Of a DNA stretch of 33,916 bases, positions 18,765 through 20,455 are shown in pieces. Below the pieces are notes generated by a model that was given only the letters and a program-made list of their open reading frames with translations, did no database searches and was not told where the DNA came from. The number at the start of each line of letters is the position of its first letter. Within the stretch, counting starts at the first letter, position 1. The DNA is taken from positions 1 through 33,916 of the forward strand of contig WGLV01000060.1 of NCBI GenBank assembly GCA_016125385.1. Direction: 5' to 3'. This DNA is from a bacterium. GTDB taxonomy: Bacteria > Hinthialibacterota > Hinthialibacteria > Hinthialibacterales > Hinthialibacteraceae. The translations under genes and the position numbers were made by a program.

Positions 18765-18994
18765 AAGAATTTCGTGTTCCTTTCCAGACCAGCCTATCAT
18801 GACCCGCCCGGGCGGCGAATCAAGCAGGGGCGAAAGAGTAAGGCGGACAGGGCTTCAAGCCGCATGGCGGCGCAGGAACGTTTTTGAAAAATCATTGAAT
18901 TCACGCTTTCAGAAATGGCGGGCCGTGATAAACTCTGAAGTTGGTTCGAAAGATAAAACGAATACGAAAAGAGAAAGAGAACGATCGACGAGGA

Positions 18995-19534
18995 ATGGGA
19001 ACACGAAAAGCGAAAATCACCGACGTCCGCCGGCTTAAGCAGCTGATCGACAACCACATGCAGGAAGGCTTCATGCTGCCCCGCCCGCTGAATGAACTGT
19101 ACGAAAACGTACGGGAATTCTGGGTATGGGATGAAGACGGCGAAGTACGCGGCTGCGCGGGCCTGCACATCTATTGGGCCGACCTCGCCGAGATCAAATC
19201 TCTGGCGGTGGATCACGCGGGCCGCGGGCGGGGCTGGGGCCGCGCCCTGATTGAGGCCTGCCTTGAAGAAGCGCGCCAGTTGCAGATCGCGCGGGTTTTC
19301 GCATTGACCCAGATTCCCGAATTTTTCCGCAAGATCGGTTTCAGTTATATGGACAAGGCCCAGTTCCCTCACAAGGTGTGGGCCGAGTGTATGCGTTGCC
19401 CTAAATTTCAGGATTGCGACGAAGTCGCGGTCGGCATCACCGTCTGCGAGCCGCTTGACAGCGAACCGGCCTTCGCCCAGTATGGACCGCGTTCACTGCC
19501 GATTATTCATCCGCCCGCGAAGGAGTCATCATGA
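18995..19534 (+). CDS. GNAT acetyltransferase, short N-acetylglutamate-synthase type
   Basis: A 179-residue acetyl-CoA-dependent N-acetyltransferase. The order MLPRPLNELYENVREFWVW, GCAGLHIYWADLAEIKSLAV, then the acetyl-CoA loop RGRGWGRALIEACLEEAR, then FRKIGFSYMDK and LPHKVW-like and CPKFQDCDE segments matches the short ArgA family that makes N-acetylglutamate for arginine synthesis. The C-terminal CxxCPxxxxC cluster is also typical. The ATG at 18995 is preferred to an upstream TTG at 18941 because the family begins with RKAKITDV; the AGGA just before it is unusually close. The stop overlaps the next gene as ATGA, so it is translationally coupled to the microcompartment vertex genes, an unexpected partnership. 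It could instead acetylate a microcompartment-related substrate; no other arginine gene is present. Confidence 0.86.
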   Translation: MGTRKAKITDVRRLKQLIDNHMQEGFMLPRPLNELYENVREFWVWDEDGEVRGCAGLHIYWADLAEIKSLAVDHAGRGRGWGRALIEACLEEARQLQIARVFALTQIPEFFRKIGFSYMDKAQFPHKVWAECMRCPKFQDCDEVAVGITVCEPLDSEPAFAQYGPRSLPIIHPPAKESS

Positions 19535-19845
19535 TTCTGGCGAAAGTCGTCGGAACCGTTGTCAGCACCCAGAAAGATCCCAAACTGGCGGGATTAAAAC
19601 TGATGTTGCTGCAGACGCTTGACATGAACATGAAACTGACCGGCAATTACGTAGTCGCGGCCGACTCGGTGGGCGCCGGGCACGATGAAGTGGTATGCGC
19701 GGCGGCGGGCTCGTCCGCTCGTCTGACCGATAACACCGACGGGCTACCCGTCGATCTCGCCATCATCGCCATCGTCGATTCGCTTGAAGTAGACGGAAAA
19801 TATATCTACCAGAAAAGCGAAGAACCCGCGGCGGCCGGCGTGTAG
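19531..19845 (+). CDS. BMC vertex (pentamer) protein 1, EutN/CcmL family
   Basis: A 104-residue bacterial microcompartment pentamer that would cap the corners of a protein shell. It shows the family pattern fully: ILAKVVGTVVSTQKDPKLAG at the start, LKLMLLQTLD, then VAADSVGAGHDEVVCAAAGSSAR with the conserved VGAG and GSSAR, and the final strand PVDLAIIAIVDSLEVDG. It is the most canonical of the three paralogues here. The start overlaps the acetyltransferase stop (ATGA), and the next paralogue begins 11 bases downstream. No BMC hexamer or trimer shell gene and no encapsulated enzyme is in the window, so the main shell locus must lie elsewhere. Confidence 0.92.
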   Translation: MILAKVVGTVVSTQKDPKLAGLKLMLLQTLDMNMKLTGNYVVAADSVGAGHDEVVCAAAGSSARLTDNTDGLPVDLAIIAIVDSLEVDGKYIYQKSEEPAAAGV

Positions 19846-19856
19846 GAAACTCCCCC

Positions 19857-20135
19857 ATGAACCTCGGCACCGTCATCGGCTCAATGTGGGCGACGCAGAA
19901 AGTATCCAGCATGGAAGGCATGGCGTTTCTGGTCGTGCAACCGCTGGATCAATACCGTCAGCCGATGGGCAAGCCGCTGATCGCGGTCGATCCGGATAAC
20001 CGCGCGGGCAAAGGCGAGACCGTCATCCTCGTCGAAAGCGGCGACGCCATGCAGGTTCGCAAAGGGCACAAAATGCCATCCGACGCCACGATCGTGGCGA
20101 TCGTCGACTCTCTCTCCACGGATGGCCAGCCATGA
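19857..20135 (+). CDS. BMC vertex (pentamer) protein 2, divergent EutN/CcmL family
   Basis: A 92-residue EutN/CcmL-family protein, recognised from NLGTVIGSMWATQKVSSMEG, FLVVQPLDQYRQPMGKP, the AGKGETVILVESGDA segment and ATIVAIVDSL. It is clearly less conserved than paralogue 1: VGAG is replaced by RAGKG after an insertion (DPDNRAGKGE) and the SSAR motif is lost (ESGDAMQVRKG). AGGAAAC precedes the ATG. The stop overlaps the start of paralogue 3 as ATGA. It probably forms pentamers with a different pore or edge surface, or mixes with its paralogues. Confidence 0.88.
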   Translation: MNLGTVIGSMWATQKVSSMEGMAFLVVQPLDQYRQPMGKPLIAVDPDNRAGKGETVILVESGDAMQVRKGHKMPSDATIVAIVDSLSTDGQP

Positions 20136-20455
20136 GACTCGCGCGTGTGGTCGGCAACGTCGTCTCCACCCTCAAGCACGAGACCTACGAAGGCAAACCC
20201 CTGCTGCTGGTCGAACCCGTCAACCCCGATGGGACTCCCAAAGGCCCCGCCACGGTGGCGATCGACTACGTCGGCGCCGGCGAAGGCGAATACGTCATCA
20301 TGGGCGGCGCGCCCGGTCAGGCCAAAGATGTTTTCAAAATCGAGGTGGCGCCCATCCGCGAAATGGTCATGGGCATCATCGACGAAGTCGAACTGAACGG
20401 CGAAGTCGTGCTGCGCGCCTCCGATTCAGACAAACCCCGCGCTCCAAAATCCTGA
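20132..20455 (+). CDS. BMC vertex (pentamer) protein 3, EutN/CcmL family
   Basis: A 107-residue paralogue: RLARVVGNVVSTLKHETYEG, LLLVEPVNPDGTPKG, AIDYVGAGEGEYVIMGG with the conserved VGAGEGE, and MVMGIIDEVELNGEVVL. The usual SSAR motif is replaced by APGQAKDVF, and the C-terminus has a charged tail (DSDKPRAPKS) that could face inside or outside the shell. It closes the operon; the following 128 bases before the convergent gene show no clear intrinsic terminator. Three separate vertex paralogues are known in planctomycete/verrucomicrobial-type compartments, but there they sit with shell hexamers and enzymes. Confidence 0.9.
   Translation: MRLARVVGNVVSTLKHETYEGKPLLLVEPVNPDGTPKGPATVAIDYVGAGEGEYVIMGGAPGQAKDVFKIEVAPIREMVMGIIDEVELNGEVVLRASDSDKPRAPKS

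Follow-up and report, generated by a model that had tools for sequence, protein, structure and literature searches.

A vertex-protein triplet in one operon with an N-acetylglutamate-synthase-type acetyltransferase: a locus that fits the vertex satellite of a fragmented metabolosome

The operon and its vertex proteins

The window analyzed here is a stretch of 33,916 nucleotides from a genome of the Hinthialibacterota, an uncultured and poorly known bacterial group. Four genes follow one another on its plus strand. The first (18995..19534) runs from an ATG at 18995 to a TGA at 19534 and encodes a GNAT acetyltransferase of 179 aa (Pfam Acetyltransf_1, 5e-15) of the short, single-domain N-acetylglutamate synthase (NAGS) type, NCBIfam PRK07757. 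Its start codon is backed by an alignment of nine relatives. The next three encode microcompartment (BMC) vertex proteins: BMC-P1 at 19531..19845 (104 aa; EutN_CcmL, 2.8e-28), BMC-P2 at 19857..20135 (92 aa; EutN_CcmL, 1.8e-23), and BMC-P3 at 20132..20455 (107 aa; EutN_CcmL, 1.8e-23; best PDB match EutN, 2hd3). Against PF03319, P1, P2, and P3 score 98.7, 83.3, and 83.2 bits (curated cutoff 25), and the profile is covered from position 1 to 83 of 83. The GNAT and P1 genes overlap as ATGA at 19531-19534, as do P2 and P3 at 20132-20135, and 11 bp separate P1 from P2. The gene upstream of GNAT, asparagine-synthase-like, is on the minus strand and ends at 18800; because it is divergent, the operon promoter presumably lies in the intergenic region 18801..18994, a placement drawn from the ORF positions. 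A promoter and terminator scan of the locus gave no sigma-70 consensus and nothing above chance, and a search of the 34-kb window for RNA families gave none. Thus, open reading frames, sequence, and Pfam matches bear out the ATGA-coupled GNAT gene and three EutN/CcmL genes of the original prediction. Its remark that no hexamer gene occurs in 34 kb is likewise correct, the window holding neither a hexamer nor an aldehyde dehydrogenase.

In a tree of 44 BMC-P sequences, P1, P2, and P3 fall into three separate clades, P1 in a CcmL-like one; these are clades of the tree made here, not the color clades of Sutter et al. 2021. The same clades also hold triplet members from other phyla. The window therefore carries a BMC-P triplet, with three paralogues, one in each distinct clade common to the triplets of other BMCs.

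The rest of the compartment

The source genome is 95.8% complete, and it was searched as a whole with profiles for PF03319 and PF00936. All three PF03319 genes fall inside the window (contig C39), and all four PF00936 domains are found on other contigs (C12, C6, and C53). Because vertex genes occur only in the window and PF00936 genes only elsewhere, the vertex genes form a true satellite. The original prediction had proposed a satellite locus for vertices and had made this depend on a hexamer somewhere in the genome; the PF00936 search found hexamers, and the proposal holds, with hexamers, a tandem shell protein, PduL, and an acylating aldehyde dehydrogenase on three other contigs.

Contig C12 encodes a hexamer, the phosphotransacylase PduL (PF06130, 2e-62), a 295-aa orphan protein, and the acylating aldehyde dehydrogenase (PRK15398, 1.2e-172). 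C6 holds a second hexamer, and on C53 an RnfC/PduS-like gene immediately precedes one for a PduT-like tandem shell protein. The dehydrogenase, PduL, and the orphan have N-terminal helices resembling encapsulation peptides; those of the dehydrogenase and PduL are amphipathic, with moments of 0.76 and 0.46. The acylating dehydrogenase and the phosphotransacylase thus both carry encapsulation peptides as predicted from sequence, and together the scattered parts are, on this prediction, those of a metabolosome. Relatives hold the same shell and enzyme sets at separate genomic places, also with encapsulation-peptide-like N-termini.

No signature enzyme was recognized at the loci on C12, C6, and C53 or in the window. 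A class II aldolase and DeoC were considered as signature enzymes; both occur in these genomes but are not specific to BMCs, and neither has an encapsulation peptide where it could be read in frame. The 295-aa protein lies between PduL and the dehydrogenase (G000:C12, L036:7901-8788, minus strand) and is kept in the main BMC loci of the class. Pfam, NCBIfam, and PDB searches with it returned no significant match, and it may be the compartment's missing enzyme. The PduS-like RnfC homologue, with the PduT-like protein directly after it (L038:8280-10183, G000:C53), suggests, by analogy with Pdu compartments, a path for electrons across the shell. In several relatives, the second hexamer gene is flanked by a Gfo/Idh/MocA-type oxidoreductase gene and a type IV pilin-like (prepilin) gene (L037:8282-10975 and matching stretches of L111 and L113).

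In the fragmented (FRAG) BMC types described by Sutter et al. 2021 (PMC8217296), shell genes are spread over as many as six places, and a BMC-P triplet is present. Here, shell genes are found at separate places on C39, C12, C6, and C53, and relatives show the same split. FRAG shell genes mostly lie far from enzymes, with an aldehyde dehydrogenase nearby at most and no clear signature enzyme. The present layout agrees with this: the dehydrogenase, PduL, and the orphan lie at one hexamer, and the PduS-like protein lies by the tandem protein. The window fits the vertex satellite locus of a FRAG-like metabolosome, an assignment made by layout and triplet and to no numbered subtype. The satellite part of the original prediction stands; its three vertex genes correspond to the BMC-P triplet already described for fragmented BMCs.

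The acetyltransferase and its linkage to vertex genes

The GNAT scores 198 bits against PRK07757 (cutoff 154). Its best PDB match by sequence is Rv2747 (1.6e-31), a single-domain NAGS of M. tuberculosis. An AlphaFold model (pLDDT 77) matches the folds 5yo2/5yge (3e-15), with classical NAGS next after Rv2747. Sequence and fold are therefore closest to Rv2747 and the GNAT domain of ArgA, as expected of a short-form NAGS. Over 108 residues, the protein is 42% identical to the Arg(A) segment of Moritella, which reportedly rescues an E. coli NAGS mutant (PMC1382215). The genome encodes no second protein of this kind at E ≤ 1e-10, and the arginine pathway is represented across the class, with argB in 13 and ArgJ in 12 of 14 genomes. 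Beyond residue 150, the GNAT tail is unconserved, of low pLDDT, and mostly broken by prolines. No encapsulation peptide was found on the protein, the moment of its tail being at most 0.35 versus 0.46-0.76 for the peptides of the dehydrogenase, PduL, and the orphan; by this measure it lacks the mark of BMC cargo. ArgJ frames in the shell-less family (L101:6887-8698; also in G010 and G013) run to about 600 aa, versus about 420 aa elsewhere, and in G012 the ArgJ domain begins at residue 219, after an extra N-terminal stretch lacking a Pfam match. A bifunctional ArgJ, if that is what the class has, would leave NAGS partly dispensable, which would count against a resident NAGS.

In each of the ten genomes of the class that bear vertex genes (G000-G009, in three families), the GNAT gene lies directly upstream of P1, with gaps of -4 to +27 bp where measured. 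Because it recurs in every one of them, the adjacency is not due to chance. It outlasts its surroundings. Eight loci from relatives were compared; in five, the GNAT-P1 pair has no other gene of the window nearby, and the flanking genes of the window are common only to its closest relatives. P3 has been relocated to a different contig in family f2, yet GNAT remains joined to P1 and, where the contig extends that far, to P2. Since the genomes share one ancestor, the ten cases are one retained association and not ten independent events. The GNAT tree places the linked copies from families f1 and f2 in a single clade (99/93); deeper in the tree, the copies of G009 and of the shell-less family f4 are not firmly placed. 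In one relative (G006:C57, L044:11034-16753), a compact 1001-aa Cas9, Cas1, a Cas2-like gene, and a repeat array lie directly downstream of BMC-P2.

Of 60 vertex-bearing genomes examined from outside the class, about 16 carry a clear homologue of the GNAT, and in none of them is it near a vertex gene. The predicted conservation of the GNAT-vertex order is thus found inside the class (10/10) and fails outside it (0 of about 16). Among the best 80 GNATs in named genomes, only five are near BMC-P genes, all from this lineage. The five carry the GenBank label Candidatus Omnitrophota (SURF_12, Ch114, Zod_Metabat.949, and USCA and USMO bins); SURF_12 we take to be OLB16/Hinthialibacterota, which presumably places all five in this lineage. 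In other genomes, arginine genes are not a recurrent neighbor of the GNAT gene; it lies beside glgC, acyl-CoA dehydrogenase, Lon, and others, as named from their sequences.

Three shell-less members of the class (G010, G012, and G013) each have a single related GNAT among unrelated genes, with no shell gene beside it. The G012 copy, the only one of the three scanned, is above the PRK07757 cutoff at 184 bits. In contrast, G011 (84% complete) has neither BMC-P genes nor a GNAT match, which counts against a resident enzyme. A lone divergent tandem BMC-domain protein is encoded in that same genome (G011:C7, L110:9121-9717), which has no PF03319 gene.

Interpretation and comparison with known systems

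These data are probably best explained by a FRAG-like vertex satellite in which the GNAT is the cell's stand-alone, short-form NAGS, not a part of the compartment, and in which its expression signals are used for the vertices. As judged from its matches, the GNAT is most likely a resident arginine-pathway enzyme whose transcript supplies scarce vertex proteins. It would make N-acetylglutamate for arginine synthesis, and this constitutive gene would carry the vertex genes on its transcript. The start-stop overlaps would couple translation of GNAT and the vertex genes, and the GNAT promoter together with this tight coupling could give steady, low coexpression of vertex proteins. The BMC-P triplet would then close off a shell for which three other places supply the hexamers, the PduT-like tandem protein, and the enzymes, and the coupling would serve expression and not a common reaction. 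A modest, steady, and separate supply is plausible because few vertex copies are needed per shell. Separate regulation of satellite shell genes has been proposed for other BMCs by Sutter et al. 2021 (PMC8217296). Counting against this explanation, the pair has held together much better than the gene order around it, which is not required of a purely incidental neighbor.

The original prediction had offered that the GNAT might modify shell proteins or a compartment metabolite, with a coexpressed arginine gene as its fallback. The fallback is the better fit. The modifier role finds no support in the matches to stand-alone NAGS or in a tail unlike an encapsulation peptide, and three members of the class that lack a shell retain the GNAT with no shell gene near it. 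In its protein-directed form, the GNAT would acetylate vertex, other shell, or cargo proteins at Lys or the N-terminus, tuning closure or permeability. The tight, durable link to P1 in 10/10 vertex-bearing class genomes favors such a role, as do residues fixed in the lineage. Tyr106, present in 70 of 73 unlinked homologues, is gone from the linked GNATs of f1 and f2, in which K15 and R77 have become fixed; of nine linked GNATs, eight lack Tyr106. Some lineage-specific change therefore exists, and it speaks against a pure housekeeping reading. However, the position is Phe in Rv2747 and Arg in Moritella Arg(A). Because the linked GNATs form a clade and known NAGS vary at this position, shared ancestry explains the changes equally well. 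Moreover, the GNAT belongs to the same NCBIfam equivalog as unlinked NAGS-type enzymes and persists in the shell-less relatives, its nearest folds are glutamate-acetylating ArgA enzymes and not protein acetyltransferases, and triplet BMCs that have no adjoining GNAT occur in other phyla. We consider acetylation of compartment proteins unlikely.

Neutral hitch-hiking, in which the vertex genes landed behind a NAGS gene in a common ancestor and the pair was never broken, would give the linkage no regulatory meaning. One origin suffices for it, given the monophyly of the f1 and f2 linked GNATs and the confinement of the link to one class, and elsewhere the GNAT gene adjoins assorted unrelated genes. 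It is nevertheless quite unlikely, as both flanks have been reshuffled and P3 relocated in f2, yet the GNAT-P1 gap is ≤27 bp in all genomes measured.

A metabolic pairing, in which the GNAT would use acyl-CoA from the encapsulated dehydrogenase to acetylate a toxic amine or a small-molecule intermediate of the compartment pathway, is very doubtful. The acylating dehydrogenase and PduL would make acyl-CoA a local product, and the GNAT family binds acetyl-CoA. Against this, the GNAT lacks an encapsulation peptide and remains where the compartment is absent, the core enzymes are at another locus, and the class II and DeoC aldolases of the class genomes are neither BMC-specific nor, where read, tagged with such a peptide. 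Least probable of all is that a NAGS-type GNAT has been turned, in this candidate phylum, into a factor devoted to modifying or regulating the vertices; acetylation of BMC-P, for instance, would let acetyl-CoA or arginine status decide whether shells close. For any direct compartment role, the linkage is the one piece of positive evidence. A resident NAGS lending its expression to the vertex genes is the reading we retain.

To our knowledge, neither a function nor a mode of regulation is known for FRAG BMCs, and we know of no settled explanation for triplicate vertex paralogues encoded apart from facet genes. A vertex-only operon that has a housekeeping enzyme of amino-acid metabolism at its head throughout a class offers a clear natural example for the idea that vertices are expressed apart from the remaining shell, and the results supply a parts list for an uncharacterized candidate-phylum metabolosome. 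The kind of compartment and the BMC-P triplet are already known, and the fixed NAGS-plus-triplet operon seems to be lineage-specific and unreported. It was not found in the main text of PMC8217296 or by a full-text literature search, which also returned nothing relevant on Hinthialibacterota BMCs or on a BMC with a GNAT. This agrees with the earlier impression that the GNAT/vertex pairing had not been described.

Compared with known enzymes, the GNAT resembles M. tuberculosis Rv2747 and Moritella Arg(A) (PMC1382215; PDB 5yge, 5yo2), which are its closest solved sequence and fold and also have a single GNAT domain, and it has the C-terminal Cys motif of Moritella Arg(A). Unlike these, it has BMC-P genes downstream and a variable extra tail, and its NAGS activity is predicted. 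Like the members of PRK07757, it scores above the curated cutoff; among the best 80 named loci of such GNATs, BMC-P linkage occurs only in members of this class (5/80). The satellite loci of the Haliangium-type HO BMC, as given by Sutter et al. 2021, likewise place vertex genes apart from the main shell genes and have triplet BMC-P. The HO satellite, however, has two BMC-P with an aldolase, whereas the present locus has three with a GNAT and no aldolase. In layout, the locus resembles the FRAG BMCs of PMC8217296, which share the scattered shell genes, the triplet with one member per clade, an aldehyde dehydrogenase with no obvious signature enzyme, and an occurrence in candidate phyla. No acetyltransferase is named in the main text of that paper, whereas here the triplet forms one operon headed by a NAGS-type GNAT.
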